Below the pieces are notes generated by a model. That model saw nothing but the letters and a program-made list of their open reading frames with translations, had not been told where the DNA came from and did no database searches. Shown here in pieces: positions 2,931 to 18,840 of a stretch of DNA of 64,000 bases. The translations under genes were made by a program, and so were the position numbers. Source of the DNA: a virus. Each line of letters starts with the position of its first letter. The stretch's first letter is position 1. Location of the stretch: IMG/VR virus record IMGVR_UViG_3300009419_000009, positions 1-64,000 of that record, one strand, 5' to 3'.

Positions 2931-5900
2931 TTATGCTCCGCCCCCGTTTAATGTGTAATAGGTTGGTTCAGTTATTTCCGCGCCACCTCCATTGAACGAT
3001 GGTGTGTTTACTCCGTATCTTGTTGATGAGAATCCGCCTTCTGCGTAGTCCACTGTGACTTCATATATGGCAGCGGCTGCGCCACCATCCAGCATCAGGT
3101 TGTCCAGTCTTGTATAAGCTGTTTTCTGGAATGTGCCATCACTGAATGTAATGCCAACATTTGATGTTTGTGGCAGGGTCAAATTGCCTGTGTTTTCAAA
3201 TGCCCAGGTGTTGGTGCCAACCACTAACTCTATTGGAAGGCGCTCAACTGTGCCATCGCCAATTTCAAAATCAGTTGTGAGTATCTTTACACCGTCACTG
3301 TCGGCTCCAGTTTCACCAAGATAACTAACACGATCAATGTCAGCATTCACTGCCACCATGGTGAACATGCCCACTTCAGTGTTGACCATGCTCACATAGT
3401 CGCCACCAAATGCCGGGCTGTTGTACTGCGGATCATTTATGCCATAGTATATGCCATTGGATGTGTAAACAGTGGCATTTGCTTGGTCATTGATGTCATC
3501 ATAACCACCTAGAGCGTAAACGCCCGCTCCGCCTGGCGTGCCTGACACCTGATGCAGTATCATGTAATTGTGGTTGTCTTCGTTTTGTGACCAAAATGCC
3601 TGGAATGGAGCCAGTTCACCTGAGGTCACTGCGGACACAGTAATTCTCTCAGTTGCGGCATTGGCAGTGGCTGTGAACACACACTCACTGAGGTCAGTGC
3701 CAATAAAGTTGCCTTGATCGTAGGCGTCGTTGTTGCCTTCAACGATAAAATGTTTTGCAAACAAGTTGTCAAATCTGACACTGGCCATGCTGCCTGATCG
3801 TGTGAGATTGGTAATTCCGCCAGATCCATTGACCCCAGTCACAGTGATTGTCATGTTGTCATCAGGAGCAATACCACCTAGCACTGTGCCAGGAACTGTG
3901 ATAGTGTCGTTGACTTGATATCCAGTGCCTGCAACCAAGATTTGTGTTTCTTCAGACCCACTGTAAGTACGGCCATCATTGTTGTAGTAGTACACAAAAC
4001 CTGAGCCAGTGCCCGATGTGGTCATGCCTGCGGTGTTGATCACTGCTTGTATTTCATTGAAATCAAACGGAGTATGCAGAGTGTCGGCCGGCAAGCTGTC
4101 TATCAAATCTGCTTGTGCTGTGTCAAATGCTGTTTGTATGTCAGCAACATCTGTTCGTAAAGTATCGCCATCATACAGAACCAAATCAATGTAGGTTCGA
4201 ACAAAAGTTTTGATGTGTTCCAAAGGTATTGGATCGCTGGTGTCGGCGCCGTAGAGGTTAATCACAGCCACATGACTGCTGCCAGTTATACCATTGGCAA
4301 AGAATGTATCTTCATTGGTGTCATCAGACAGGTTATAGCCACGCATGGCGGCGCTACGACTCAATATGATTTGATTCAGTGATGGATCGTCATCTGCGCC
4401 GCCATCTTGTTCTGATATTTGATTTACAGTGGCATAGAATCCGCGATAGGCCTTTGAGTTTGAAACGCCAGCAACGATTGCGCCGGGCACTACCACAGTA
4501 CCGTTAGCACCAAATGTCCATGTGTGTTCTATGGATGTTGGATCACTTGGATCAAAAGAGCCAGTTATGAGTTGAACAGCACCGTTGGCAGCAAACGGAC
4601 TGTTGATTATCATCCCTGCAACAGATGTTGGGTTGCTATAATCATTTACCCATTGTACACCAACACCACCAGCTGATCCTTGTGCCAAAATGCCTATGAA
4701 ACTATTGGCAGTTGTTTCTATGACATCGCCGGCGCCTGTGTTTCCCATGGTCATGCCCGACGGGAATGTTAGCATGCCGCTGGTGTCAAATGTCCAATGC
4801 TTGGTATTTGTGTCAGTGCCAATAACAACATCACCGCCGTCTTTTTCAATCTTCACATACTGGTCATCGTCGCCTAGGTATATGTCAGTTGTTGCGGGAT
4901 CACCTGCTACCAAGTGGATGTGACTGGTTTCAATAACACCATTGTCGGTGACTGTTATAAAGGCAGTGTTCCAAGGGTTGTCGCCGCCCACTGTCAATGT
5001 AAATGTGGTAGCACTGGTATATTCAGGAATTGGTAGTACTACCGTAGTTGTTTGAGGAAGTTCACCAGCTGGAGAAAAAGCAGGGAATGTTCCTGTCAAA
5101 CTGCCTATGCCCAACTGTTGCGCTGTTGCTCCAGTGATTTCATAAGTTACGCCTGTAATATCAAGACTGGCATCTATATTGTTTAGAGTAATTGTTAAAT
5201 TTTGTCCAGGAACAATCGCACCGCTGGCAGTTAAAGTACCACCCGCAGTTGGACGAATAACCAGACTCTGTCCGGCAGCGGCCCCAGGTGGTGAAATAAC
5301 TGTGGTGGTTTCTGTTTCACCTATTGTACTACCCAGTGGTAATGTTATGTTTCCATCTGCTTCAAGTACAACTTCATTGGCACCATTTGTTAATCTATCA
5401 CTACTTCCGACTCCGTTGCCACCTAGCACACTCTCACCGTCGCTGTTGACAATGTCAGCACCTGCGGGTAGTTTTAGTTTTGGGGAATCACCAACGTTAT
5501 TAAATTCAAATGTTCCACTGCCCACTTGAATGTAAGCCGCACCCGTATCGCCATCACTACTCTCTGCCCATATATAAACGTTGCCGCTTTGTAGCTGTGC
5601 GTATGAACTGGCATTGATATTAACTACATTGCTTGTGGATCCAATCTCATCATCAGTAAATGTGATGTTGCCAGTGTTGGCACCGCCACCTGCATCAAAA
5701 TCGTATTCGCTTTCGCCTGCACGAGTTTCTGCACGGAATGGAATCTGTGTCCAGTCTCCAGCAACAAAGTTGTTGATGGGATCCGCTGTCTCAGTGGCCC
5801 ACATGTTCTGTTCTGCCAAGTCTGCCACTTGGCCACTATATCCCGATCCTGCTGTGTCAACAGTGATGTTTCTAATGTATCCTTCGTCGTCAATGCCGCT

Positions 5901-8162
5901 GGATGAATAAGTTGCTGGAGTGAATGATAAATTGTCAGCGTTGCCATTCAAGAAGGCAAAGTGAGCATTGTCAATTATGGTTGGATTGGTTGCAAAGCTG
6001 TAGGACTGATCCCCAGTTTCTTCCACTTGTTCCACAAAGGCCGAACTGGCCACTGCACGAGTCACGCCTGGCAGAATCAAGTTGCCAGATACGGTGGACT
6101 TGATTGCGGCATTGCCAATATACACCGTGCCTGGGCCCACATACAAGTGACGGAAACGATAGAGTGAACTGCCTAGATCAAACACATTGTCTGAGTTGGG
6201 CAGTATGCTACCAGGTACTGTGAGATTACCGGCGGTGTCTAGTACGGCATTGTACCCACTGTTGAACAGAACACTGATAGGTGCCTGTGTGTATGCTGTG
6301 CGTTGGAATGAGCCGTCACCAAACACAATACCTGTAGTGGATATTGCAGGACTGCTCATGAAATTCATGTTGTTTGGCAAGAACAGGTTACCGTCTTCTC
6401 TAAAGGTCCAAGGTTCTGCATTGGCTGTTATATAAACATTACCATTAGTTGACTTTAATTCAATATCGTTGATACTGCCTGTACCTGCATTGGATGCGTT
6501 GCCAAATACCAATTTGCCATCACCAGCGCCATTGAATAGATAAAACTCTTGAGTATCGCTGTCCAGTATCCAGGCGTTTGTGCCATTGCCAGTCTCTAAT
6601 ACCCACGAACCAAGTGTAGTTGTTAGTCCATTGTAATATAAAGTAGTTGTAGCACCACCAATCATTGGATCGTAAAAATGCCAATTGAATCCTTGACCGT
6701 TTGGTAGTGTGATGTTGTTGTTAAAGAATCTGGTGTTGTTAGCAAAAATCACGTTGCCAACTGTGATTGGTTTGTTGAATTCAAACGAGTCACTAACAGA
6801 TGAATAAGAGATGTTGGCCAGCGCACCAGCCACACGCAGACCAGCACCGTTTGCTGCCGCGCTGTTGATTGCACCATTGGCCACTGTTATGTACAAATCA
6901 GCTACATTCAAAGTGGCTGTATTAACTGTGGTTTGAGTACCATTGACCTGAAGGTTACCAAGTACCACTGCATTGTATGACACAGTTAGATTGCCAGTGG
7001 TTACATTGCCTGCCAGGTACGCGGCTGTGTTAACATTACTATAGACCTGTGTTTGTAGTGTGGTAATAGCAGAGTTAGCCGCGGTGATGTTTGCACGAAG
7101 CGCATTTATATCTGTAGCCTGTGTACCAGCATTAGCAGTCCATGCAGTGGTAACTGCATCAACATAGCTCTTCATGCCTGTGTTGGCAGTGACAATAGCT
7201 GAGTTGGCTGCTGACACGTTTGCGGTCAGTTGCTGTATTGTTGCAAATCCGGATCCAGTTTGCAAGGTAGCAATGGCTGCATTGGCCGCGGTAATATTAG
7301 CACGTAGGTCGTCAATCTCTGCGTGTGCGGCTGCGGCATTTGCTGTCCATGCAGTGGTAACTGCATCAACATAGCTCTGCATTCCTGTGTTGGCTGTGAT
7401 AATAGCACCGTTGGCTGCGGCAACGTTTGCATTGATTGTGTTGATCTGTGTCGCCTGCGTGGCTGCATTGGCCACTGTGCTGTATGTTGCATTAGCATAG
7501 GTATAAAACGGAGCCATGTATGCCGCAACATTGGTGTTCGAGTATGTTCCGCTTTGTGGATTGGCCACTAGATAAGACGCAACATTGGCATTGCTATAGG
7601 TGCTGGCACCACTTACAGGTGCACCGTTTACCAACAATGATCCATCAGCAGTGATACTCAATGGAATGCTATTGATGTAAATGGTGTTGTTGCTGACCCA
7701 GAGATCTTTCCACTGACGTGTGGCACTGCCTAGGCTGTATACTACATTGGCAGAGGGAATAATGTTGCCAGCAACTGTGGTTAGGTATGCAACCACATTG
7801 GCATTGCTGTAAGTACCTGCGCCGCCACCTGTAAATGTAGCATTGGCATAGGTTTGGAACGCACCAATATTGGCGTTAATGGAGTTGATTGCTACTGCTT
7901 GAACGGCTGCGTTTGCATTTGCCGCTGTGATTTGTGCTGTGGTTGCATAACCACTTAGGTTAATGTTGCCCACTGCAACGTTGGCAAGTTCAGCATAGGT
8001 GGCCAATCGTGTACCACCCACAACAACTCCGTCATGCACACGTAGAGTTTTCAACGTTGTGTCCATGGTGATTTCACCACGCACGCCTGTGTAGGTACTG
8101 CTTACTGTGGTGTTGCCGCGACCTACTAGGATCTTTTTAATTTGTACGTTTGCTGTAGCCAT
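2931..8162 (-). CDS. Giant tail-fibre-like structural protein (1743 aa)
   Basis: The ATG at 8162 (MATANVQIKKILVGRG) is preferred over the in-frame ATG at 8186, which lies inside the preceding gene. The first ~60 residues carry GEITMDT and LRVHDG, the same N-terminal fibre module found in the gene at 49347. Residues ~60-450 contain alternating YSNANVASYL and ITAANAAI heptad-like repeats that look like a coiled-coil or beta-helical shaft. The remainder has LPLGSTI and WTFGANGTV repeats like those in T4-like marine phage fibres. It follows the small structural gene by four bases and abuts the next fibre gene by one. It is probably a trimeric distal fibre or adhesin; the receptor is unknown. Confidence 0.85.
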   Translation of the reverse strand: MATANVQIKKILVGRGNTTVSSTYTGVRGEITMDTTLKTLRVHDGVVVGGTRLATYAELANVAVGNINLSGYATTAQITAANANAAVQAVAINSINANIGAFQTYANATFTGGGAGTYSNANVVAYLTTVAGNIIPSANVVYSLGSATRQWKDLWVSNNTIYINSIPLSITADGSLLVNGAPVSGASTYSNANVASYLVANPQSGTYSNTNVAAYMAPFYTYANATYSTVANAATQATQINTINANVAAANGAIITANTGMQSYVDAVTTAWTANAAAAHAEIDDLRANITAANAAIATLQTGSGFATIQQLTANVSAANSAIVTANTGMKSYVDAVTTAWTANAGTQATDINALRANITAANSAITTLQTQVYSNVNTAAYLAGNVTTGNLTVSYNAVVLGNLQVNGTQTTVNTATLNVADLYITVANGAINSAAANGAGLRVAGALANISYSSVSDSFEFNKPITVGNVIFANNTRFFNNNITLPNGQGFNWHFYDPMIGGATTTLYYNGLTTTLGSWVLETGNGTNAWILDSDTQEFYLFNGAGDGKLVFGNASNAGTGSINDIELKSTNGNVYITANAEPWTFREDGNLFLPNNMNFMSSPAISTTGIVFGDGSFQRTAYTQAPISVLFNSGYNAVLDTAGNLTVPGSILPNSDNVFDLGSSLYRFRHLYVGPGTVYIGNAAIKSTVSGNLILPGVTRAVASSAFVEQVEETGDQSYSFATNPTIIDNAHFAFLNGNADNLSFTPATYSSSGIDDEGYIRNITVDTAGSGYSGQVADLAEQNMWATETADPINNFVAGDWTQIPFRAETRAGESEYDFDAGGGANTGNITFTDDEIGSTSNVVNINASSYAQLQSGNVYIWAESSDGDTGAAYIQVGSGTFEFNNVGDSPKLKLPAGADIVNSDGESVLGGNGVGSSDRLTNGANEVVLEADGNITLPLGSTIGETETTTVISPPGAAAGQSLVIRPTAGGTLTASGAIVPGQNLTITLNNIDASLDITGVTYEITGATAQQLGIGSLTGTFPAFSPAGELPQTTTVVLPIPEYTSATTFTLTVGGDNPWNTAFITVTDNGVIETSHIHLVAGDPATTDIYLGDDDQYVKIEKDGGDVVIGTDTNTKHWTFDTSGMLTFPSGMTMGNTGAGDVIETTANSFIGILAQGSAGGVGVQWVNDYSNPTSVAGMIINSPFAANGAVQLITGSFDPSDPTSIEHTWTFGANGTVVVPGAIVAGVSNSKAYRGFYATVNQISEQDGGADDDPSLNQIILSRSAAMRGYNLSDDTNEDTFFANGITGSSHVAVINLYGADTSDPIPLEHIKTFVRTYIDLVLYDGDTLRTDVADIQTAFDTAQADLIDSLPADTLHTPFDFNEIQAVINTAGMTTSGTGSGFVYYYNNDGRTYSGSEETQILVAGTGYQVNDTITVPGTVLGGIAPDDNMTITVTGVNGSGGITNLTRSGSMASVRFDNLFAKHFIVEGNNDAYDQGNFIGTDLSECVFTATANAATERITVSAVTSGELAPFQAFWSQNEDNHNYMILHQVSGTPGGAGVYALGGYDDINDQANATVYTSNGIYYGINDPQYNSPAFGGDYVSMVNTEVGMFTMVAVNADIDRVSYLGETGADSDGVKILTTDFEIGDGTVERLPIELVVGTNTWAFENTGNLTLPQTSNVGITFSDGTFQKTAYTRLDNLMLDGGAAAAIYEVTVDYAEGGFSSTRYGVNTPSFNGGGAEITEPTYYTLNGGGA

Positions 8163-8166
8163 TTTA

Positions 8167-8664
8167 TTATAGTTCTCCGGCGTCAACTACACCGTCATAT
8201 ATTGCGACTGGAAGTACAGGAGTATTTGAATAGTAGCCACTTAGTACCTGTACAGGTAATCTCACGCTGTAGTTGTCGTCAATGTACAATGGCGTTTCGT
8301 CGTTGGAAGTCAAGTCAATCAACTTGACTGTGAATTCATAGTGTCTTTGATCTAGTGCATTAACCACTGAAGCTGGTATTGTGAACACGCCTAGACCCTT
8401 GTTCTGAGTAACAAAATCCACAGTGAAAGTTTCTACTGTGAGTTTGTTTTCTGGATCTTGTATGTCAACTTGCACATCGTAACCAGTTAGATCAACAGCT
8501 TTTTGATCCTGATTTTTGGTCACAATGTGAATAGGGTTATCAATACCCTGGTAGATTTTTATTGTTCTGCTGTACACGATCCTGTTCCTCGTAGAGAAGA
8601 TGGCTGGATCTATGACCTGAATTTCTAGGATATTTTTATAAAAAAACGCTTCAATTGTTTGCAT
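8167..8664 (-). CDS. Small structural protein, possibly baseplate/fibre connector
   Basis: A 165-residue protein beginning MQTIEAFFYKNILEIQV. It has alternating short beta-strand motifs such as IYQGIDNPIHI and DLTGYDVQVDI, ending in PVLPVAIYDGVVDAGEL. This layout (DLTG, then long strands describing an input and offset) resembles upper-baseplate BppU-type N-domains, but I cannot confirm homology. It is the first gene of the fibre operon and has a T4-type late promoter about 27 bases upstream. Position and spacing suggest a fibre-attachment or baseplate-edge protein. Function is inferred. Confidence 0.65.
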   Translation of the reverse strand: MQTIEAFFYKNILEIQVIDPAIFSTRNRIVYSRTIKIYQGIDNPIHIVTKNQDQKAVDLTGYDVQVDIQDPENKLTVETFTVDFVTQNKGLGVFTIPASVVNALDQRHYEFTVKLIDLTSNDETPLYIDDNYSVRLPVQVLSGYYSNTPVLPVAIYDGVVDAGEL

Positions 8665-8699: not shown

Positions 8700-9257
8700 T
8701 TAAACGGTGTAACGGTAGTTGACCATAATTCCCCAGCTTTCGTCCTGGCGGATGTCGCTGGCGTCTGCGTCAAAGTTAACTGCATGTAGGCTAGCACCAT
8801 TGCCCAAATGGAACTTGGCCACAGGATCTTTGCGTAGAGCAATAAACTCACGCACTTGTTCTTCAGTGGGCTGAGTATCAAAGTGCTTGCGCAAGCTGGG
8901 AATAGGGCTTAGTGTGTAGAAATTCTTCACACCTTGTGCGCTAAAATGATTCACAGCTTCTCTTAATGCTCTAGCACCCACGCCCATTAGTGCGTCAGGC
9001 AAACGGAAGATGGTGTAGAACATGGCAGTCAAACCTTCTTCTTTGCTGTCTACAAAGATGTCTTTCATGCTTCGTACCAAATCGTCACTTACCTTGGTGC
9101 AAATCATGCATTGGTGTTGCTCGTCTTCGTCGTACATGAGCACAGTACGTGTGCCCACTGCGCGAGATTCTTTGGCAATGGTTGGATGAACAGGGTCATG
9201 GCTGATGAGTTCTAGCCATTGCTTGTCAAATTTTTCTGAGTTGGATGGGATGATCAT
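8700..9257 (-). CDS. Miniature malonyl-CoA-decarboxylase-like catalytic domain protein
   Basis: A 185-residue protein matching the C-terminal catalytic (GNAT-fold) part of malonyl-CoA decarboxylase, an enzyme that makes acetyl-CoA and CO2 from malonyl-CoA. Motifs in order: TAMFYTIFRLPDALMGVG (77-94; the family has a similar YSIS..PGLRGV), NFYTLSPIPS (112-121) with Ser117 at the catalytic serine position, KFHLGNGASL (148-157) with His150 at the catalytic histidine position, and WGIMVNYRY (175-183). Family members are about 400-490 residues with an N-terminal helical domain that is absent here. A Shine-Dalgarno AGGA sits seven bases before the ATG, and a late-type promoter is upstream. It could lower malonyl-CoA during infection, or be a GNAT-fold acyltransferase reusing the scaffold. 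Family match is by motif memory. Confidence 0.75.
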   Translation of the reverse strand: MIIPSNSEKFDKQWLELISHDPVHPTIAKESRAVGTRTVLMYDEDEQHQCMICTKVSDDLVRSMKDIFVDSKEEGLTAMFYTIFRLPDALMGVGARALREAVNHFSAQGVKNFYTLSPIPSLRKHFDTQPTEEQVREFIALRKDPVAKFHLGNGASLHAVNFDADASDIRQDESWGIMVNYRYTV

Positions 9258-9284: not shown

Positions 9285-9292
9285 TATTTATT
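9285..9292 (-). promoter_or_regulatory. Late-type promoter upstream of the MCD-like gene
   Basis: AATAAATA on the minus strand, 28 bases before the ATG at 9257 and downstream of the terminator at 9303, so the MCD-like gene can be transcribed separately from the tRNA/heptose operon. Confidence 0.5.
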
Positions 9293-9301
9293 ACAGTCGT
9301 G

Positions 9302-9327
9302 AAAAAAGGGGCCGTAGCCCCTTTATT
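9302..9327 (-). terminator. Rho-independent terminator after tRNA-Ser(TGA)
   Basis: Eight-pair stem AAAGGGGC/GCCCCTTT with a four-base loop, followed on the minus strand by a T run. It closes the transcript that ends with the asparagine-synthase-like gene and tRNA-Ser. Confidence 0.8.
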
Positions 9328-9334: not shown

Positions 9335-9424
9335 TGGCGGAAGCGGTGAGATTCGAACTCACGGTGCCTTTCGACACGACAGTTTTCAAGACTGTTGCAA
9401 TAAACCGGACTCTGCCACACTTCC
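9335..9424 (-). tRNA. tRNA-Ser(TGA)
   Basis: Acceptor stem GGAAGTG/CGCTTCC, anticodon loop CTTGAAA, a long class II variable arm, T-arm with TTCGAAT, and encoded CCA (9335-9337). It reads UCA/UCN. It lies one base after the stop codon of the asparagine-synthase-like gene, detached from the main tRNA island. Confidence 0.93.
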
Positions 9425-9425
9425 A

Positions 9426-10595
9426 TTAGTTGTATAAATCTTGCAGGCGATATATGCCTGTGCGATCTAGATTTTTGTTCACGGCCAAATAGGCCAAGAG
9501 CCCGGCGTCATTGCGACGGACAAGCTCTTTTTGTATACTAGCATCAACGATGGCGTCAATTATATTTTTTTCGTCCAGCTCTAGTGTTAGTTTTAACAGT
9601 TGTATGTCCTTGAACGGCGTGAATGTAATAGTGCGTCCAAGATGCCAGTGCTGGTGATCGTTAATGCACATCCGCAGAATATGCTCCGCAGTTGTTTGTT
9701 TGCTTTGTATTACCTTTTGTATTTGTTCGTCCTGCTGTTGTCTTGCATAGATAGCAGATTTCTCTACACCTTGAAAGTACAGGTAATGATAATGCTCAGG
9801 TTCTAACACCTGTTCCATATTTTTGCCTAGATGCATCAGCATGATATTTGCTGTTGCAGGCCCACGCAAAAAATACTCATCGCCACAGGCCCCAGTGACT
9901 AGAATAGTGGGCTTGCGGTAATGATGTATTTGGTTATAACCCCAGTGTTCACGCAACTGAGATTCAAAATTAATTGTGAACTGATCGTAGTCAGTGTGTT
10001 CAGCCATGATCAATTCATGTGGTATGTGCAGTGCTCGTAGATAACTGATACACAGCAAGGTATCGATGCCACCAGAGTAAAATACCTTGATGTTGTCTGC
10101 GTTTAGACCCAACCACGAAAACTTAGCAGTCAACAAGTTGTGCATTTCATCTACCACTTCAGTAAAACTGCGTGTGGACCCTGGCACAGGAATCACTGTA
10201 CAACGATGTTCATGTATGGTTTGATCAATAGTTACCCAGGCATCTGCCCATACGTTCACAGGATGTTGTACTTCAATGTTGCCAACTGCATGCTCGGCAT
10301 CGTCACGAAACAGTGGTGTTGCTCTACTGGTATCATTGGTAACTGTCACTGTACCGTTTTTATGAGCTAGTACTGCTACAAAGTTACCTTCAAATCTAGG
10401 CTGTGCATTTTCAAACAGTTCTTCTGCCAGCACATGATTGATGCCACGCTGAAAGCAATAGCCCTTGATGTATGCATAACCATACTGGGTGTGTATCTCT
10501 TGCCAACCTAGATCACAATTGAGCCAAAGTTCTTTGGTCAGCGGATACTGCGCAGGGAACTTGGTGTCTTGTGTGGGCTTGATACAAAAGAACAT
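9426..10595 (-). CDS. Asparagine-synthase-like (class B) ATP-pyrophosphatase protein
   Basis: 389 residues. A synthetase PP-loop is visible as FYSGGIDTL (172-180), and the second nucleotide-site motif GACGDEYFLRG lies at 235-245. These belong to the asparagine synthase/beta-lactam synthetase ATP-pyrophosphatase fold, which adenylates a carboxylate for amide formation. The N-terminal ~160 residues look like a degenerate class II glutamine amidotransferase domain (RFEGNFVAVLAH, SRATPLF), but there is no Cys at position 2, so glutamine hydrolysis is unlikely and ammonia or another amine would be the donor. Its ATG overlaps the cupin stop codon (TAATG). The kinase, nucleotidyltransferase and cupin neighbours suggest modification of a sugar or surface glycan rather than free asparagine synthesis. 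Substrate unknown. Confidence 0.82.
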   Translation of the reverse strand: MFFCIKPTQDTKFPAQYPLTKELWLNCDLGWQEIHTQYGYAYIKGYCFQRGINHVLAEELFENAQPRFEGNFVAVLAHKNGTVTVTNDTSRATPLFRDDAEHAVGNIEVQHPVNVWADAWVTIDQTIHEHRCTVIPVPGSTRSFTEVVDEMHNLLTAKFSWLGLNADNIKVFYSGGIDTLLCISYLRALHIPHELIMAEHTDYDQFTINFESQLREHWGYNQIHHYRKPTILVTGACGDEYFLRGPATANIMLMHLGKNMEQVLEPEHYHYLYFQGVEKSAIYARQQQDEQIQKVIQSKQTTAEHILRMCINDHQHWHLGRTITFTPFKDIQLLKLTLELDEKNIIDAIVDASIQKELVRRNDAGLLAYLAVNKNLDRTGIYRLQDLYN

Positions 10596-10954
10596 TACTT
10601 TTGACTGTCGCCTTTTGCTACTCTGTAATTGTCTTCCACAGAGTCCGGTGTGCTGACTTCAATCACTGTGCCTGCTTCGACGCATTCCAGCTGATGAGGT
10701 TTGCAAGGTTCATTGTGCCATACACTACCATCACGCAGTTCTTTTTCGTGCAGTTCAGCAGTGGCAGTGTCAATCCAACGCACAATAAATCGTCCTGATT
10801 GCACATACCATGTTTCTTCTTTGAATTGATGAAAGTGCATACTGAACTTGGCGCCAGTATTAAAGTTCATCATCTTGCCGCAGTACTTGTCATTGGTAGC
10901 CCAGATAAATTCTGAACCCCACCCCTTGGGTACTAATCCTTTTAACTGTGTCAT
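10595..10954 (-). CDS. Single-domain cupin, sugar-phosphate-isomerase-like
   Basis: A 119-residue cupin. The metal-binding motif is SMHFHQFKEETWYVQSG (38-54), with His40, His42 and Glu46, and a later His87 in KPHQLE. This matches the small mannose-6-phosphate isomerase type II/GDP-mannose-pyrophosphorylase cupin family. Such cupins in nucleotide-sugar clusters isomerise or epimerise sugars, or bind them. The start overlaps the kinase stop (ATGA) and the stop overlaps the next start (TAATG), so it is tightly coupled in the heptose operon. The reaction is inferred from the cluster. Confidence 0.8.
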   Translation of the reverse strand: MTQLKGLVPKGWGSEFIWATNDKYCGKMMNFNTGAKFSMHFHQFKEETWYVQSGRFIVRWIDTATAELHEKELRDGSVWHNEPCKPHQLECVEAGTVIEVSTPDSVEDNYRVAKGDSQK

Positions 10955-11187
10955 CGTATTTCATCCAATCTTGGTGCATACACACCAGTGTGTTGTACAG
11001 TAACGGCGCTGGCACGAATAGCAAATAAAATTGCTTGACTCATGTCACCATCTGTATTTAGATATTCATATGCCAATGCTGCCAAGAATGTATCACCGGC
11101 TCCACACACGTCAGTAACGTCTATTTCAGGCGCCGGATACATGACAAAATTGTGCAAAGCGCCTTCTTTACCCAGCGTTACAATCAT
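10951..11187 (-). CDS. PfkB-type heptose kinase, C-terminal fragment (frameshifted)
   Basis: This fragment carries the PfkB signature 2 DVCGAGDTFLAALAYEY, including the catalytic Asp of the GAGD motif, and MIVTLGKEGA, which in the family precedes the nucleotide-binding region. The same frame is open further upstream, as IEGCIVKINEVEY, to about 11255, where it meets the N-terminal fragment in another frame. Restoring one base in the A5 run (minus strand, 11255-11259) joins the halves into a 249-residue kinase, shorter than the ~318-residue HldE kinase domain. Treat it as half of one gene. The ATG at 11187 may not be a natural start. Confidence 0.75.
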   Translation of the reverse strand: MIVTLGKEGALHNFVMYPAPEIDVTDVCGAGDTFLAALAYEYLNTDGDMSQAILFAIRASAVTVQHTGVYAPRLDEIR

Positions 11188-11234
11188 GTTTGTGCAATCG
11201 CTGTGTCTTGCCTTGTATTCAACTTCGTTGATCT

Positions 11235-11699
11235 TTACAATGCAACCTTCAATCTTTTTAGATCCTGCTTTTTGGTGTCAATGAAAATAGGACCCGGAAA
11301 TTCTCTGCGTAGTTCTTCCACCAGCTCATATGTGATCAGGCCTTTGTTGTAGTCGCTGATCACAATGGCATGATACACTTGTGGTATTGCTGTTTCAAAC
11401 ACTAGCGGATCGTTTTTGACATCAGCATCTATTCTAACAATCTGTTGCTTGCTACGACTGTCAATCAATCGTGTCTTGACACTTTGTTGCCCTGTGATAA
11501 AATTTGCATCTAGGCCAAGTGCTTTGAGATTTTCATATACATTGGCCGCCATGCCTGGGCGTTTTTCTTCTGTGGTGGGTGTGAACACAGGAACAGGTGC
11601 TTCTGGACTCATACGATCCACAACACCATATTGATAAACATCTAAACAACTGTCACCTAGTAACAATATGTTGAATTGCTTTTGTACTGGAATACTCAT
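11235..11699 (-). CDS. PfkB-type heptose-7-phosphate kinase (HldE/RfaE domain I-like), N-terminal fragment
   Basis: The ATG at 11699 (MSIPVQKQFNILLLGDSC) is chosen over that at 11759 because family similarity begins here. Motifs: GDSCLDVY, MSPEAPVPVF and RPGMAANVYENL. These match the first domain of HldE (RfaE), which phosphorylates D-glycero-beta-D-manno-heptose 7-phosphate at C1 for ADP-heptose and LPS core synthesis. HldE normally has RPGGAANV; here a Met replaces one Gly. The frame ends early after FIDTKKQDLKRLKVAL, while the next frame continues the family pattern. The start overlaps the nucleotidyltransferase gene by 47 bases. In E. coli kinase and transferase are fused; here they are separate and in reversed order. 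Confidence 0.8.
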   Translation of the reverse strand: MSIPVQKQFNILLLGDSCLDVYQYGVVDRMSPEAPVPVFTPTTEEKRPGMAANVYENLKALGLDANFITGQQSVKTRLIDSRSKQQIVRIDADVKNDPLVFETAIPQVYHAIVISDYNKGLITYELVEELRREFPGPIFIDTKKQDLKRLKVAL

Positions 11700-12048
11700 C
11701 GAGTCTTTCAAAAAATTCAATGCGTGGCACATGTTCTTCACCAATGATTGGCCGACCACGATAGTCGCTGCCTTTGACCATGATGTCTGGCTCGCTTGTT
11801 TGGATCAGGTGTTCTAGTTCTTGATCTGTGTCAAAAGTACAAACCTTGTCCACGTACCTTAGAGCTTGCAACATTAGCCTGCGTTCATCTTGATTGAAGA
11901 ACGGACGGCCTGTGCCTTTTAGCTGTCGTACACGACGATCTGTATCTATAGCAACTGTTACCCTGCCAAGACTAGCCGCATACTGCAACAGCATCACATG
12001 CCCCGGATGCAGGATATCAAACGTACCATTGACGAACACTTTAATCAT
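11653..12048 (-). CDS. Heptose-1-phosphate nucleotidyltransferase (HldE/RfaE domain II-like)
   Basis: 131 residues from the ATG at 12048. The longer frame to 12228 would run through tRNA genes and is rejected. The cytidylyltransferase-fold signature VNGTFDILHPGH (6-17) supplies HxGH at 14-17. Also present are KGTGRPF, VKGSDYRGR and the family ending YSSTKAIQHI (SSTxxI). The fold transfers AMP from ATP to heptose 1-phosphate in ADP-heptose synthesis; some relatives act on glycerol-3-phosphate or other sugar phosphates. The kinase next door supports a heptose role. Together they could make ADP-heptose for phage-directed LPS or glycan modification, or create the immune-signalling metabolite. Activity is inferred. 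Confidence 0.85.
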   Translation of the reverse strand: MIKVFVNGTFDILHPGHVMLLQYAASLGRVTVAIDTDRRVRQLKGTGRPFFNQDERRLMLQALRYVDKVCTFDTDQELEHLIQTSEPDIMVKGSDYRGRPIIGEEHVPRIEFFERLDEYSSTKAIQHIVTR

Positions 12049-12091
12049 TGTTACATTATATATTGTTGCACAAGCTTCGTCAATAGATATT

Positions 12092-12165
12092 TGGTGCTCA
12101 AGTACAGAATCGAACTGTCGATTGCTCCTTACCATGGAGCCGTTATGCCACTTAACTACAAGAGC
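12092..12165 (-). tRNA. tRNA-Thr(GGT)
   Basis: Anticodon loop ATGGTAA, stem GCTCC/GGAGC, T-loop TTCGATT, encoded CCA. The acceptor stem GCTCTTG/CTTGAGC has two adjacent U-U mismatches, so it may be weakened. Confidence 0.85.
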
Positions 12166-12166
12166 G

Positions 12167-12243
12167 TGGTACCCCTCCCCCGACTCGAACGGGGAACACA
12201 CTCCTTTTGAGAGAGCCGCGTCTACCAATTGCGCCAGAGGGGT
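12167..12243 (-). tRNA. tRNA-Leu(CAA) with short variable loop
   Basis: Acceptor ACCCCTC/GAGGGGT, Leu-like D-arm GGTAGACGC, anticodon loop CTCAAAA, discriminator A, CCA. The variable region is only about five bases, whereas bacterial leucine tRNAs usually have a long class II arm. Confidence 0.88.
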
Positions 12244-12249
12244 ATTGAG

Positions 12250-12325
12250 TGGTGGAAGTGGTGAGACTCGAACTCACGATAAACACCGTATGAAGGTGGC
12301 GCATTAGCCACTATGCTACACTTCC
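12250..12325 (-). tRNA. tRNA-Met(CAT), elongator-like
   Basis: Acceptor GGAAGTG/CACTTCC, anticodon loop TTCATAC, T-loop TTCGAGT, CCA. It has a normal 1-72 pair, unlike the C1-A72 of the initiator-like gene at 12495. Confidence 0.9.
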
Positions 12326-12330
12326 TGAAA

Positions 12331-12407
12331 TGGCGACCCCGAAAGGATTTGAACCTCTGACATTTGGTTTTGGAGACCAACGTTCTGCCGGACTGAACTA
12401 CGGAGCC
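12331..12407 (-). tRNA. tRNA-Trp(CCA)
   Basis: Acceptor GGCTCCG/CGGGGTC, anticodon stem TTGGT/ACCAA with loop CTCCAAA, discriminator G, encoded CCA. Confidence 0.93.
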
Positions 12408-12412
12408 ATGTA

Positions 12413-12490
12413 TGGAGCAACGGGTGAGATTTGAACTCACGGTTTTCGGGATTTGCAATCCCGTGCATTGGGCCGCTCTGCCACCGTTGC
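12413..12490 (-). tRNA. tRNA-Cys(GCA)
   Basis: Anticodon stem CGGGA/TCCCG with loop TTGCAAA, T-loop TTCAAAT, discriminator U typical of cysteine tRNAs, CCA encoded. Confidence 0.92.
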
Positions 12491-12494
12491 ATAT

Positions 12495-12568
12495 TGGTTG
12501 CGGGCCCAGGATTTGAACCTGGGATGCTCCTGGCTTATGAGACCGGAGTGGTGGCCGCCCTGCCCGCG
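12495..12568 (-). tRNA. tRNA-Met(CAT), initiator-like
   Basis: Anticodon loop CTCATAA. The acceptor is CGCGGGC/GCCCGCA, so base 1 is C opposite A72, the unpaired end that marks bacterial initiator tRNA. The T-loop is TTCAAAT and the 3' end GCAACCA, as in E. coli fMet. The D-arm is about five bases shorter than usual and the anticodon stem lacks the full GGG:CCC run. It may serve initiation or be a variant elongator. Confidence 0.8.
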
Positions 12569-12575
12569 ATAATCT

Positions 12576-12667
12576 TGGCGGAAACGGAGAGATTCGAACT
12601 CTCGGTGCCAATTACTTGACACGACAGGTTAGCAACCTGCTGCCTTAGACCACTCGGCCACGTTTCC
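12576..12667 (-). tRNA. tRNA-Ser(GCT)
   Basis: Anticodon loop TTGCTAA between GCAGG/CCTGT, long class II variable arm, acceptor GGAAACG/CGTTTCC, discriminator G, CCA. A consensus promoter lies directly upstream. Confidence 0.94.
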
Positions 12668-12677
12668 AGTTGTTTGT

Positions 12678-12706
12678 ATTATATAGTGATAGCACATTGC
12701 TGTCAA
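12678..12706 (-). promoter_or_regulatory. Sigma70 consensus promoter TTGACA-N17-TATAAT
   Basis: Perfect -35 (12701-12706) and -10 (12678-12683) hexamers on the minus strand with a 17-base spacer. Predicted transcription starts near 12671, just before tRNA-Ser(GCT), and would run through the next six tRNAs into the heptose operon. It shares TTGACAGCAATG with the promoters at 17252 and 17354. Confidence 0.88.
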
Positions 12707-12715
12707 TGTTTATTT

Positions 12716-12791
12716 TGGTAGTTCCTAGCGGGCTTGAACCACTGACCTTTACGATGTCAACGTAACGCTCTACCAACTGAGCTAAGGAACT
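12716..12791 (-). tRNA. tRNA-Val(GAC)
   Basis: Acceptor AGTTCCT/AGGAACT, anticodon stem TTACG/CGTAA, loop TTGACAT, CCA encoded. Its 5' end is two bases from the CCA of tRNA-Arg(CCT). Confidence 0.93.
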
Positions 12792-12793
12792 GT

Positions 12794-12868
12794 TGGTACC
12801 GCTAGGAGGAATCGAACCTCCGTCTTAACCTTAGGAGTGTTTTGTTCTATCCACTGAACTATAGCGGT
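12794..12868 (-). tRNA. tRNA-Arg(CCT)
   Basis: Acceptor ACCGCTA/TAGCGGT, D-arm GGATAGAAC typical of arginine tRNAs, loop CTCCTAA, T-loop TTCGATT, CCA. The anticodon stem has mismatches at both ends. Confidence 0.87.
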
Positions 12869-13074
12869 TTGTTTAGTTTTTTGATATGCTCAATGTGGCG
12901 TTTGAATTCGCGCACATAGTAAGGATCTTTTTCCAGCATCTTGGCTAGATATCCTGCTAGAAAACCTGCATGATACAGCCTGTGCATTCTTTCGTTGCCC
13001 TTGTATTCCACAGGACACACTGACTCTACACTTTGTTGTATAAACTTAACATAGTCTTCGTGTGAGTAGTCCAT
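12859..13074 (-). CDS. Small hypothetical protein overlapping tRNA-Arg 5' end
   Basis: 71 residues: MDYSHEDYVKFIQQSVESV at the start, then VEYKGNERMHRLYHAGFLAGYLAKMLEKD in two blocks, ending IKKLNKPL. Helical, with balanced charge and plausible phage codon use. The stop codon lies inside the 5' acceptor region of tRNA-Arg(CCT), overlapping it by ten bases, so coding and tRNA maturation compete on one transcript. No strong Shine-Dalgarno is seen. No family recognised. Confidence 0.6.
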   Translation of the reverse strand: MDYSHEDYVKFIQQSVESVCPVEYKGNERMHRLYHAGFLAGYLAKMLEKDPYYVREFKRHIEHIKKLNKPL

Positions 13075-13085
13075 ACAAATATTTA

Positions 13086-13161
13086 TGGAGCCCCCTGAGG
13101 GATTCGAACCCCCGACTAACTGGTTCGAAGCCAGCTACTCTGTCCACTGAGTTAAAGGGGC
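13086..13161 (-). tRNA. tRNA-Arg(TCG)
   Basis: Anticodon stem GCTGG/CCAGT with loop CTTCGAA, T-loop TTCGAAT, acceptor GCCCCTT paired to AGGGGGC, CCA encoded. Confidence 0.92.
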
Positions 13162-13167
13162 AATGTG

Positions 13168-13243
13168 TGGTGCCAAGGACTGGACTCGAACCAGTAACAC
13201 ACGGATTTTCAATCTGCTGCTCTACCATTGGAGCTACCGAGGC
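13168..13243 (-). tRNA. tRNA-Phe(GAA)
   Basis: Anticodon stem GCAGA/TCTGT, loop TTGAAAA, T-loop TTCGAGT, CCA. The acceptor GCCTCGG/CCTTGGC has two central mismatches. Confidence 0.9.
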
Positions 13244-13248
13244 ATGTT

Positions 13249-13323
13249 TGGGGAGAAGTACGGGAATCGAACCCGTGATAGCGGAATCACAACCCGCGGT
13301 TTTGCCACTAAACTAACGACTCC
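13249..13323 (-). tRNA. tRNA-His(GTG)
   Basis: Anticodon loop TTGTGAT between GCGGG and TCCGC. An extra 5' G opposite C73 (the G-1 identity element of histidine tRNAs) is encoded, followed by CCA. Confidence 0.92.
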
Positions 13324-13329
13324 ATTGAT

Positions 13330-13403
13330 TGGCACGGGAACTAGGGATCGAACCTAGGACGACAGAGTCAAAGTCTGTTGTGTTACCTCTACACCATTCC
13401 CGA
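13330..13403 (-). tRNA. tRNA-Gln(TTG)
   Basis: Anticodon stem ACAGA/TCTGT, loop CTTTGAC, acceptor CGGGAA/TTCCCG with a weak 1-72 pair typical of glutamine tRNAs, discriminator G, CCA. Confidence 0.92.
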
Positions 13404-13410
13404 ACAAAAC

Positions 13411-13487
13411 TGGCGCGACCAGCAGGATTCGAACCTACCACCCCAACGTTCGTAGCGTTGTACTCTATCCAAATGAGCTATGGTCGC
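13411..13487 (-). tRNA. tRNA-Arg(ACG)
   Basis: Anticodon stem CAACG/CGTTG, loop CTACGAA, acceptor GCGACCA/TGGTCGC, CCA. A34 would need TadA deamination to inosine to read CGU/CGC/CGA. Confidence 0.94.
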
Positions 13488-13811
13488 ATAATTAGTGCTA
13501 GATTGTTTACTGCACAACCTAGCAAAGCAGGGGTCTGTAGACTGCATACAACTTGTCTCATTGTACTCCGTATGCAAGGGAGAGATTGAATTTGAGAGCC
13601 TACGCCGCGTTTATCGTAGATTTATTCAGGACTTACCGGCCGCCTAGCCTGACCTCGCTCGCGATGGATATCACTTGGGCGCCTGTCCAGTTAGCAACCA
13701 ATCTGCACCGCTCTTCCGAGCAGCCGGGAGTTGAACCCGTCCCCTTTTACTATTTTGGTAGTTCGAACTTACCTAGATAGCGTGACTGCGCTTGCTGACA
13801 CTCTCAAAACT
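13488..13811 (-). ncRNA. Structured RNA with a circularly permuted tmRNA-like layout (candidate)
   Basis: A 324-base gap between tRNA-Pro and tRNA-Arg(ACG). Read 5' to 3' on the minus strand it has: a ~75-base leader; a T-arm CGGG-TTCAACT-CCCG (about 13723-13737), identical in its loop to tmRNA; then GCTGCTC-GGAA-GAGCGGT, a fully paired seven-pair acceptor-like stem closed by a GNRA tetraloop; a D-arm-like GCA-GATTGGT-TGC; a possible pseudoknot stem TCAGG/CCTGA; a short frame ending AAC GCG GCG TAG (N-A-A-stop); and two hairpins (TGCATAC/GTATGCA, and an 11-pair stem near 13490-13530). Two-piece tmRNAs have this order. No CCA is visible and the classic GGATTCGAC box is absent, so the call is tentative. 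Confidence 0.4.
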
Positions 13812-13888
13812 TGGTCGGAGTACAAGGATTCGAACCTTGGACCCCCTGGTCCCAAACCAGGTGCGCTACCAGACTGCGCCACACTCCG
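13812..13888 (-). tRNA. tRNA-Pro(TGG)
   Basis: Anticodon stem CCTGG/CCAGG, loop TTTGGGA, acceptor CGGAGTG paired to TACTCCG, discriminator A, CCA. Confidence 0.94.
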
Positions 13889-13895
13889 AAATTGA

Positions 13896-13969
13896 TGGTG
13901 CCCCGTGACAGAATCGAACTGCCAACTACTGATTACAAAACAGTTGTTATACCACTTAACTAACAGGGC
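13896..13969 (-). tRNA. tRNA-Thr(TGT)
   Basis: Loop TTTGTAA, stem ACTG/CAGT, acceptor GCCCTGT paired to ACGGGGC, T-loop TTCGATT, CCA encoded. Second threonine tRNA. Confidence 0.91.
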
Positions 13970-13976
13970 TTGAAAC

Positions 13977-14050
13977 TGGAGCGGGGTAGGAGAATCGAAC
14001 TCCTCGCTTTAGCTTGGAAGGCTAAGGTATTACCACTATACGAACCCCGC
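13977..14050 (-). tRNA. tRNA-Gly(TCC)
   Basis: Anticodon stem TTAGC/GCTAA, loop CTTCCAA, acceptor GCGGGGT/ACCCCGC, CCA encoded. Confidence 0.94.
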
Positions 14051-14059
14051 AATAAAATC

Positions 14060-14134
14060 TGGTGCATCGTGAGAGGGTCGAACTCCCGACATTCGCCGTG
14101 TAAAGGCGCTACTCTACCACTGAGTTAACGATGC
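14060..14134 (-). tRNA. tRNA-Val(TAC)
   Basis: Loop TTTACAC in stem CGCC/GGCG, acceptor GCATCGT/ACGATGC, T-loop TTCGACC, CCA. Confidence 0.93.
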
Positions 14135-14139
14135 AATGT

Positions 14140-14214
14140 TGGTGGAGGATAGCGGGGTCGAACCGCTGACTGAAGCTTGCAAAGCTACTGTGTTCCCAAC
14201 TATACCAATCCCCC
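14140..14214 (-). tRNA. tRNA-Ala(TGC)
   Basis: Loop TTTGCAA, acceptor GGGGGAT/ATCCTCC containing the G3-U70 pair that specifies alanine, CCA encoded. Confidence 0.93.
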
Positions 14215-14221
14215 ATAACAC

Positions 14222-14297
14222 TGGCTCCACAGGGTGGGCTCGAACCACCGACCAAATGATTAACAGTCATCTACTCTACCAACTGAGCTACTGCGGA
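14222..14297 (-). tRNA. tRNA-Asn(GTT)
   Basis: Anticodon stem GATGA/TCATT, loop CTGTTAA, acceptor TCCGCAG/CTGTGGA, discriminator G, CCA. Confidence 0.94.
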
Positions 14298-14305
14298 ATA
14301 AAATC

Positions 14306-14381
14306 TGGAGCGGGCGAAGAGGTTCGAACTCTCGACATTTACCTTGGCAAGGTAATGCTCTACCAACTGAGCTACGCCCGC
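14306..14381 (-). tRNA. tRNA-Gly(GCC)
   Basis: Anticodon stem TTACC/GGTAA, loop TTGCCAA, acceptor GCGGGCG/CGCCCGC, CCA. Second glycine tRNA. Confidence 0.95.
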
Positions 14382-14392
14382 ATGTGTTTTAC

Positions 14393-14614
14393 TTATTTGT
14401 CGCGAACTTTCTTCAAATATTCGCGACCTACTTTACCTTGTTCAATTTCTTCAAGCACTTGAATAATAGGACCATTTGTTGATACAACTTTTGATCTATG
14501 TCCAGCTTTGATTTCTCTTAGTCTAGCTGATGCAATCAACACTAGGTCAAATTGATTACCTATCATTTGTGCTGCCTCTTGTGATGTTCTACCAGTGATG
14601 TATTCGTCGGACAT
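14393..14614 (-). CDS. rpoZ: RNA polymerase omega subunit (RpoZ-like)
   Basis: 73 residues matching bacterial RNA polymerase omega, which binds the beta-prime C-terminus, aids core assembly and forms part of a ppGpp site in proteobacteria. Visible family blocks: ITGRTSQEA (6-14), NQFDLVLIASARLREI (20-35; the family has NRFxLVLxAxxRAR), GHRSKV (38-43), LEEIEQGKVGREYLKKV (54-70). The GKVGxExLKKV ending and GHxxKV are typical of beta/gammaproteobacterial omega. The conserved first helix is intact and the length is near normal (host ~67-91). Shine-Dalgarno AAAGGA lies seven bases before the ATG, with a weak -10 TATACT at 14639-14644. It sits between tRNA-Gly and tRNA-Ile. It could swap into host core to alter ppGpp response or help phage sigma; that role is inferred. 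Confidence 0.85.
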   Translation of the reverse strand: MSDEYITGRTSQEAAQMIGNQFDLVLIASARLREIKAGHRSKVVSTNGPIIQVLEEIEQGKVGREYLKKVRDK

Positions 14615-14667
14615 TAAGTTCCTTTGTTTTATTTACTTAGTATAACACACGATCATGCTAATTGCAA

Positions 14668-14742
14668 TGGTTGCCTATCTTGGGAACGATCCAAGGACCC
14701 CCGCCTTATCAAGACGGTGCTCTACCACTGAGCTAATAGGCA
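14668..14742 (-). tRNA. tRNA-Ile(GAT)
   Basis: Anticodon stem CCGTC/GGCGG, loop TTGATAA, acceptor TGCCTAT/ATAGGCA, CCA encoded. Confidence 0.93.
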
Positions 14743-14747
14743 ATAAT

Positions 14748-14909
14748 ACCATATGGAAACACACTAGTGAGCCAGTCTAACGCAGCCATCGCAACTTTGC
14801 AAGTCGTTTCCAACTTGTGTATCGTCTTTCTGGGCGAGCTGTATGTGTAGAGCTCCGCAAGTTCTCAATGCAATCGCTTGCAAGGACAACTAGTATGTTT
14901 TCATATGGT
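14748..14909 (-). ncRNA. Hairpin-bounded non-coding module A
   Basis: A 162-base segment between tRNA-Ile and tRNA-Lys. Its ends are a 21-base inverted repeat: ACCATATGGAAACACACTAG(T) at 14748-14768 and its near-complement at 14889-14909, with 19 of 21 Watson-Crick pairs. The right arm overlaps the CCA of tRNA-Lys(TTT). The interior has no frame longer than a few codons and contains further short stems (for example around GCAAGT and TTGCAAG). It is either a processing stem that exposes the tRNA 3' end or an independent RNA excised by RNase III-like cleavage. Confidence 0.5.
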
Positions 14910-14981
14910 AGAAGCAGTGGGACTCGAACCCACAACTATCCGGTTAAAAGCCGGGTACTCTAGCCATTGAGTTATGCTTCC
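14906..14981 (-). tRNA. tRNA-Lys(TTT)
   Basis: Anticodon loop CTTTTAA in stem CCGG/CCGG, acceptor GGAAGCA paired to TGCTTCT with a G1-U72 wobble, CCA encoded inside the inverted repeat of module A. Confidence 0.93.
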
Positions 14982-14984
14982 ATA

Positions 14985-15060
14985 TGGTCCCTGCGGTCAG
15001 GCTCGAACTGACGACCAGCGGATTAAGAGTCCGTTGCGCTACCAACTGCGCCACACAGGG
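14985..15060 (-). tRNA. tRNA-Lys(CTT)
   Basis: Anticodon stem ACGGA/TCCGC, loop CTCTTAA, T-loop TTCGAGC, acceptor CCCTGTG paired to CGCAGGG, CCA encoded. Confidence 0.93.
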
Positions 15061-15417
15061 TTGTACGTATTGTTTGATTTTACGTGCCAACCCTAGACCA
15101 TACGGATGCCTAGAGCGACACTAGAGTTTACCTCGTTTCATGTCAATCTCCTTGATTAAATAAAATGCTCTGCGAACCCCGGTGGTAATTATACCGTATC
15201 AGACCTTTGGAGTCATCACGCACGGCCTCCACCCACTTCCCGACGGGTTCCGTTGTCGCATTGCCAGCGGCCTTTCGGTAGGAAGACTACCACCCTTGGC
15301 TATCACACCACTTCTCATCGTGCGGGTCACACTATCTGCTGATTAGGCAGAACGTTCTAGCTACAGGACACTTGTGTTGTTTAAGCCTGAGCACGGATGC
15401 AAGGCTCCTCTAAAAAT
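15061..15417 (-). other. Non-coding structured gap between tRNA-Lys(CTT) and tRNA-Asp
   Basis: 357 bases without a convincing protein gene. Short stems are visible, for example GGTAG(TCTTC)CTACC near 15277-15295. On the minus strand AAGGAG precedes ATG at 15141 by six bases, but that frame is only MKRGKL then stop (15121-15141). It could be a leader peptide, a chance match, or part of an RNA structure. No tRNA, RNase P or intron core was recognised. Confidence 0.4.
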
Positions 15418-15492
15418 TGGCGGTGCCAAGGGGTAACGATCCCCTTCTTCGAGCGTGACAGGCTCGTGTGCGTCCATGAACACTTTGGCACC
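15418..15492 (-). tRNA. tRNA-Asp(GTC)
   Basis: Perfect acceptor GGTGCCA/TGGCACC, anticodon stem CGAGC/GCTCG with loop CTGTCAC, T-stem GGGG/CCCC with loop ATCGTTA, discriminator G, CCA. Confidence 0.92.
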
Positions 15493-15498
15493 TAAAAA

Positions 15499-15574
15499 TG
15501 GTACACGGTACGGGAATCGAACCCGTCTTACTAACGTGAAAGGCTAGTGTCCTAAACCGATAGACGAACCGTGC
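15499..15574 (-). tRNA. tRNA-Glu(TTC)
   Basis: Anticodon stem CTAGC/GTTAG, loop CTTTCAC, acceptor GCACGGT/ACCGTGT, T-loop TTCGATT, CCA encoded. Confidence 0.93.
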
Positions 15575-15579
15575 ATAAA

Positions 15580-15664
15580 TGGTGGAGGTGGCTGGACTTG
15601 AACCAACAATGCACAAGGGCGGCGGATTTACAGTCCACTGGGGATACCATTTTCCTACACCTCC
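15580..15664 (-). tRNA. tRNA-Tyr(GTA)
   Basis: Anticodon stem GTGGA/TCCGC, loop CTGTAAA, class II variable arm (CGCCCTTGTGCA region), acceptor GGAGGTG/CACCTCC, CCA encoded. Confidence 0.93.
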
Positions 15665-15673
15665 AAATTTTTA

Positions 15674-15804
15674 CCATATAGAAACACACTCGGCTCCCCT
15701 TACAACCTTGTTCCTGTCAATTCAGGATGCACCTGGAATGAACCCAGCGGATCTCCTTGGTTGTTTGTATCTGTCAATTCAGATTGAAAATGTGTTCTTA
15801 TATA
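15674..15804 (-). ncRNA. Hairpin-bounded non-coding module B
   Basis: Begins with CCATATAGAAACACACT, the same boundary element as modules A and C. It ends with an imperfect complement (15791-15804), so the closing stem is degenerate. Inside are two hairpins with the identical loop TCAATT: CCTG-CAGG (around 15713-15726) and ATCTG-CAGAT (around 15770-15784). Different stems that both pair argue for selection on RNA structure. No coding frame. Confidence 0.45.
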
Positions 15805-15807
15805 ATA

Positions 15808-15889
15808 CCATATAGAAACACACTGGCTGTTGCTTGTCATTGTCTTTAACTACCTCTCGGTGGCGGTAGACCAGTGTGTTTTTATATGG
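15808..15889 (-). ncRNA. Hairpin-bounded non-coding module C
   Basis: An 82-base hairpin: CCATATAGAAACACACTGG (15808-15826) pairs with 15871-15889 over 19 positions with a single G-U wobble. The 44-base loop holds a second stem CTACC/GGTAG. On the minus strand the 5' arm begins with the CCA of module D. The stem is longer than an ordinary terminator and has no U tract. Function unknown. Confidence 0.55.
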
Positions 15890-16121
15890 TGGAGGACTGA
15901 GAATACATCTCTCCCATAAGCACCTCAAGCATTATTGTACACCTTGCGAGCGTACTTTCTCTTGACTTCCACTCGGGTCCTTGCGGATCTCCTAGTCTGC
16001 TTACAGTATCGCCGTTTTTAACGTCAAGCAGTAGACGTGTCATCATATGCTATTCTGCGGATTCCATTCCGTTAGCCTTGCGAGCTATTCAGGTGCGCTA
16101 ACACCTTACGAACCCCCCTCC
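15887..16121 (-). ncRNA. Non-coding module D with tRNA-like GGAGG...CCTCCACCA ends
   Basis: On the minus strand this 235-base segment starts GGAGGGGGGTTCG (16121 downward) and ends CAGTCCTCCACCA (15899-15887), so its ends can form an acceptor-like helix followed by discriminator A and CCA. Internal hairpins with TTGCG-type loops are at about 15942, 15979 and 16076 (plus strand CCTTGCG). A short frame GCA TAT GAT GAC ACG TCT ACT GCT TGA (AYDDTSTA, stop) recalls a tmRNA tag, but the T-loop is not canonical. It could be a degenerate tmRNA-like or novel RNA; no family is confirmed. Confidence 0.4.
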
Positions 16122-16222
16122 ACAAACTAATGTCACCTTGCGAGCTTCATTAGACTTGATTCACTTGCGTGTCAAGTATTAGATACTTTTCACATATGAC
16201 CGAGGCAGTCTTTGCGTTTTTG

Positions 16223-16296
16223 TAATGATAGTTGGGATTTGAACCCGACTGCATCCAGCTTAAAAGGCTAGCGTTCAACCATTGAACTTTATCAAC
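16223..16296 (-). tRNA. tRNA-Lys(TTT)-like, degenerate
   Basis: D-arm GTTC/GAAC with AATGGTT loop, anticodon stem CTAGC/GCTGG with loop CTTTTAA (TTT), T-loop TTCAAAT. The acceptor GTTGATA/TATCATT has a U-U mismatch and the T-stem a C-A mismatch. The 3' end reads ACAA instead of CCA. Either a decaying copy or a tRNA needing host CCA addition. Confidence 0.55.
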
Positions 16297-17113: not shown

Positions 17114-17190
17114 TGGTGCCCAAGGAGAGACTCGAACTCTCAAAATTTGGCTTCTAAGACCAACACGTATACCAATTCCGTCACCTGGGC
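17114..17190 (-). tRNA. tRNA-Leu(TAG) with short variable loop
   Basis: Acceptor GCCCAGG/CTTGGGC, anticodon stem TTGGT/GCCAA with loop CTTAGAA, discriminator A, CCA encoded. Only about five bases (ATTTT) separate anticodon and T stems, unlike the long arm of tRNA-Leu(TAA) at 18096. Confidence 0.9.
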
Positions 17191-18835: not shown

Positions 18836-18840
18836 ATGTT

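Follow-up and report, generated by a model that had tools for sequence, protein, structure and literature searches.

A candidate single-domain malonyl-CoA decarboxylase of a T4-like phage and its relatives in an apparent Bacteroidota malonate operon

Malonyl-CoA decarboxylases (MCDs; MLYCD/MatA; PF05292; PDB IDs: 4ksf, 4ksa, 4ks9, 4f0x and 2ygw) are proteins of 400-490 aa that combine an N-terminal helical oligomerisation domain, a catalytic GNAT domain and a C-terminal tail. In the human enzyme the catalytic dyad is formed by Ser329 and His423, with the S329A and H423N substitutions lowering kcat 110-fold and 7-fold, respectively; Tyr456 positions the histidine, Phe288 is close to the carboxylate that leaves, and the position of CurA Arg404 is taken by an Asp (PMC3701320). 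An invariant Ser together with a His instead of the usual Tyr acid is the signature of decarboxylating GNATs (PMC3701320), which also include the CurA GNATL loading domain (PDB ID: 2ree/2ref), GphF (PDB ID: 6mfc) and SxtA. The Mad malonyl-ACP decarboxylases (MadA/MadB), relevant by name and also decarboxylating a malonyl thioester, were considered as relatives of the protein described here and rejected: a hot-dog fold carries their activity, MadA having a GNAT domain that is inactive (PMC8666670), whereas our protein has no match to PF09500 (hot-dog fold) and is predicted to adopt a GNAT fold.

The window analyzed here is a stretch of 64,000 nucleotides forming part of a 121,177-base IMG/VR virus record. 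An open reading frame on its minus strand (8700..9257; ATG at 9257, stop codon at 8702-8700) encodes a 185-aa protein. The original prediction, that this protein reproduces the catalytic end of MCD, holds: the frame is real, the motifs TLSPIPS, KFHLGNG and WGIMVNYRY start at residues 115 (Ser117), 148 (His150) and 175, and the proposed profile search against the MCD family yields a significant match (Pfam MCD, E = 2e-20; 74 bits against a cut-off of 23.2). Searched alone against solved MCDs with phmmer, the protein reaches a best E-value of 7e-11, and a PDB search with a profile of its phage relatives returns only MCDs (best 6e-20). The sequence resemblance to the MCD family is far beyond chance. 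The N-terminal helical domain is missing, as had also been proposed, with the frame beginning just ahead of the GNAT domain and residues 2-4 already forming the first predicted GNAT strand; the C-terminal tail of MCDs is absent as well. The window gene is a member of the MCD superfamily with an architecture other than the canonical two-domain one. No family covering the protein was found in PHROGs or NCBIfam, and a search of 50,697 phage records revealed no credible relative, its hits, among them tape-measure proteins at E of about 1, being at noise level.

Phage relatives were recovered with a degenerate DNA pattern for FHLxNGA...N...D and fall into two types. The long type, to which the window protein belongs, comprises nine distinct phage sequences of about 183-190 aa, all of which (9/9) match Pfam MCD; the second, short type is widespread. 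This survey of related phages, suggested with the original prediction, qualifies its remark that the gene is not a common phage gene: among sequenced isolates this is right of the long type, but the wider family and the bacterial operon had been missed. The latter emerged from a scan of bacterial and archaeal genomes, which returned full-length MCDs and, scoring above them, a short form of about 190-196 aa (39-48% identity) on contigs binned mainly as Bacteroidota; one contig labelled Rhizobium groups with Flavobacteriaceae in the tree. The bacterial short form is rare, known here from a few freshwater bacteria and occurring in 1 of 396 Bacteroidota genomes, and this single occurrence is the seed itself.

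In most of the loci read, the bacterial short form is encoded by the third gene, preceded by an MFS transporter and a 480-485 aa MatB-like ligase (L090, 266-3576; also L091, L092, L094, L095, L096, L104 and L105). Exceptions occur in a Chitinophagaceae subgroup, where the gene directly follows the transporter, with a ligase-like end further upstream (L097), or lies in another gene arrangement (L103). The best NCBIfam model for the ligase is malonyl-CoA synthase, at 470-500 bits and under the curated cut-off of 558, and its best solved match is Rhodopseudomonas MatB (352 bits, compared to 234 for the best non-malonyl ligase). As in the MatABC malonate operon, the decarboxylase gene follows those of a transporter and a malonyl-CoA synthetase-like ligase, but here the decarboxylase is short and the transporter belongs to the MFS. 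The Bacteroidota locus appears to be an operon for malonate utilisation whose decarboxylase is unusually short; since transporter, MatB-like ligase and decarboxylase make up the content of a malonate operon, the short protein would fill the MatA slot. More than any other evidence, this position of the bacterial gene suggests that the short form is an active MCD.

The AlphaFold model of the window protein has a mean pLDDT of 95.2 and a pTM of 0.89. In agreement with the original prediction, the predicted fold is a GNAT fold whose best solved matches are all MCDs, occupying Foldseek ranks 1-17 (E 3e-11 to 1e-8; query TM 0.73-0.81); the decarboxylating GNATs CurA GNATL, GphF and SxtA follow at ranks 18-20 and 24, ahead of most ordinary acetyltransferases. 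The rank of these superpositions, a gap-free alignment of the 34 residues from His150 to Tyr183 and the invariance of the residues involved indicate that Ser117 (codon 8907..8909, minus strand) and His150 (8808..8810, minus strand) correspond to Ser329 and His423 of the human dyad, with the roles described for them (PMC3701320). The assignment of both residues by motif alone is superseded by tests of profile, fold and residue register. Ser117 is invariant in 33 short forms and 20 MCDs, and the Ser, the His, the Asp at His+15 and the NYxY motif are conserved in 33/33 short forms, phage and bacterial. Tyr183 (8709..8711, minus strand), within NYxY at His+33, is the predicted equivalent of human Tyr456, and Phe80, retained in the long type, that of Phe288. 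Likeness to MCDs extends to an FY on β4 and, close to where the domain begins, a VH motif. Ser and His are exactly 33 apart in every long phage form and every bacterial one, 10 apart in every short phage form and 47-91 apart in 20 full-length MCDs, the large β5-β6 helical insert of MCDs being reduced in the window protein.

On gene content, the genome is that of a T4-like myovirus, because the record encodes a terminase, a UvsX-type recombinase, a gp32-type single-strand binding protein, a tail sheath and, outside the window, a Gp23 capsid protein (E = 1e-98), as well as 33 tRNA genes; Gp23 was used as the hallmark, a DnaB search being uninformative for T4-like phages. The tRNA genes, a nearly full set, lie on one strand (window 9335-18915). 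An ATAAATA motif (9285..9291, minus strand) is located 34 nt upstream of the start codon of the MCD-like gene, and the same motif occurs within 50 nt upstream of 8 of the 37 gene starts in the window, with 0.2 expected (binomial P 5e-12). It is likely the late-promoter consensus of this phage and is consistent with a T4-type late promoter, so the late-type promoter originally proposed is upheld as a motif enriched at gene starts, but not as the exact T4 TATAAATA, of which there is none in the window. Between the upstream tRNA-Ser gene (tga; 9335..9424, minus strand) and the MCD-like gene, a G+C-rich hairpin with a T-run (9301..9324, listed on the plus strand, its minus-strand copy read by eye) forms a terminator-like element that would separate the gene from upstream transcription.

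Downstream lie the genes for a 165-aa protein of phrog_1084 (unknown function; 8167..8664, minus strand), kept in loci L170 and L171, and for a 1751-aa fibre-like protein with a weak Mtd_N match (2931..8186, minus strand). This order is maintained in L171 and, with one opposite-strand methyltransferase gene inserted, in L170. Upstream, the window gene is accompanied by genes for a 389-aa protein, a cupin, a PfkB-type kinase and a cytidylyltransferase. A search of 19 phage records, several of them fragments, revealed neither an acyl carrier protein (PF00550) nor an AMP-ligase or malonyl-CoA ligase, so that the phages, unlike MatABC operons, were not seen to pair the decarboxylase with a ligase; no lipid gene was seen adjoining a phage MCD-like gene either. 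The phage genome context therefore does not point to malonyl-CoA.

This context bears on the foremost alternative, itself unlikely, that the protein is a decarboxylating acyltransferase akin to CurA GNATL, with a carrier protein or a small molecule as recipient of the acetyl group, as might happen in surface-sugar or fibre modification. CurA GNATL, GphF and SxtA share with the window protein a GNAT decarboxylase domain of similar size, CurA and GphF come next after the MCDs in the Foldseek ranking, and the compact architecture and Ser-His spacing match CurA, whose Ser/Thr-His dyad is 34 apart judging by residue numbers, better than MCDs. The cytidylyltransferase, PfkB-type kinase and cupin genes near the window gene would fit such a role, and a distant relative (L013/L182) also has cupin and cytidylyltransferase genes nearby. 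However, a group of six loci of long-type phages (that of L005) lacks such sugar genes in its vicinity, and the 19 phage records searched provide no acyl carrier protein as acceptor. Furthermore, these domains were not found by sequence profile, the window protein lies outside any polyketide synthase, and its Asp165 (codon 8763..8765, minus strand; His+15 in the alignment) is as in many MCDs, rather than the CurA Arg404 that has been linked to S-transfer (PMC3701320).

The short phage type comprises proteins of mostly about 135-160 aa from dozens of contigs. Taken singly, 8 of 22 representatives match Pfam MCD (best 1.6e-6), but profile comparison of the long- and short-type alignments gives a probability of 99.6%, and the predicted short-type structure equals that of the window protein in confidence, with MCDs as its top 13 matches. 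The short type was found in a single phage isolate, Pelagibacter phage Mosig EXVC030M, as hypothetical protein Mosig_00145, whose gene is flanked by those of thymidylate synthase ThyX and a gp59-like loader. Short-type loci (L003 9120-9575, minus strand, and its relatives; L198 7947-8432) also feature ThyX, dCMP deaminase, phosphoribosyltransferase, and QueD-like or GTP cyclohydrolase genes as neighbours. In L003, a 1182-aa subtilase-domain protein (9588-13136, minus strand) is encoded directly upstream of the short-type gene, and relatives of it occupy that position in 27 loci. A maximum-likelihood tree groups together the MCDs, the bacterial short forms and the short phage type, each by itself, but does not resolve the long phage type into a single clade; with long branches present, it does not settle the deep order among the long phage type, the bacterial form and MCDs.

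The ease with which GNAT folds can be turned to acyl transfer counts against a decarboxylase reading. Next in probability, and likewise improbable for the window protein, is a repurposed acetyltransferase, performing ordinary GNAT chemistry with acetyl-CoA as donor and keeping MCD-like residues by descent. The fold itself is compatible with it, the viral matches of the model being generic GNATs. The equivalent of Phe288 is often lost in the short phage type (Ala in 8/13), which furthermore lies beside ThyX, dCMP deaminase, and queuosine-type or nucleotide genes; because of this loss and of these nucleotide-metabolism neighbours, repurposing is more plausible for the short type, whose substrate may differ. 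Against it stand the His in place of the usual Tyr acid, the invariant Ser and the malonate-type operon in which the bacterial form resides.

A further reading, with a slim chance of being correct, is that the protein decarboxylates another malonyl thioester, such as malonyl-ACP or methylmalonyl-CoA. The same chemistry occurs in related polyketide synthase GNATs, and the pocket may be more open without the helical insert, but in the bacteria the gene for the short form accompanies one for a MatB-like ligase, an enzyme that makes the CoA ester. Close pairs have dN/dS values of 0.04-0.10 (long type) and 0.12 (short type); the values for the window gene and its two closest relatives, 0.05-0.08, indicate purifying selection on the window gene. 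That the gene is a decaying, functionless fragment of a host MCD, as its length relative to cellular MCDs might suggest, is very improbable and already contradicted by these selection values, in addition to the invariant catalytic residues, the late motif and a defined length common to the independent bacterial operon form.

Decarboxylation of malonyl-CoA by a single-domain MCD is probably the function encoded by the window gene, a reading supported by homology, predicted fold, dyad, selection, late-type motif and bacterial malonate-operon context. The GNAT fold would bind the CoA thioester and the malonyl carboxylate would leave as CO2, with Ser117 and His150 holding and protonating the resulting enolate to yield acetyl-CoA; the N-terminal helical domain and the β5-β6 insert of ordinary MCDs would be dispensable. 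Expressed from its putative late promoter, the enzyme would most likely lower malonyl-CoA in late infection, slowing host fatty-acid synthesis and returning acetyl-CoA. We infer in this manner the activity of the phage protein, its CoA-ester substrate and its benefit, whether curbed host fatty-acid synthesis or recovered acetyl-CoA. More tentatively, a few Bacteroidota may share with two uncultured phage lineages an unrecognised branch of single-domain MCDs. The phages would use it late, as an auxiliary metabolic gene with which to remove malonyl-CoA and gain control of host fatty-acid synthesis, and its smallest form (about 140-150 aa, with Ser and His 10 apart) would constitute a minimal thioester decarboxylase.

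Malonyl-CoA is the committed precursor of fatty acids. If it does remove malonyl-CoA, the phage enzyme would be a direct lever on host membrane synthesis; we found no precedent for this in the open-access literature, and the route by which some phages may steer the lipid metabolism of their hosts would be a previously undescribed one. The searches, which covered open-access papers and few subscription ones, yielded no paper on a phage malonyl-CoA decarboxylase, which is weak evidence of absence. Judging by this family, a GNAT domain on its own may be capable of MCD chemistry, and natural short enzymes, one of them in an apparent malonate operon, hence make the roles of the MCD N-terminal domain and insert testable.

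Two of the upstream neighbours of the window gene show further features. The 389-aa protein (window 9426-10595, minus strand) has no Pfam or PHROG match and a 63% identical copy in L170, and its SGGIDT stretch resembles a PP-loop (asparagine-synthetase-like). The PfkB-type kinase (window 10951-11759, minus strand) is read in two frames of 174 and 78 aa, compared to a single 253-aa frame in the close relative L170 (3508-4269), a split that on the sequence is a frameshift, real or assembly-derived.
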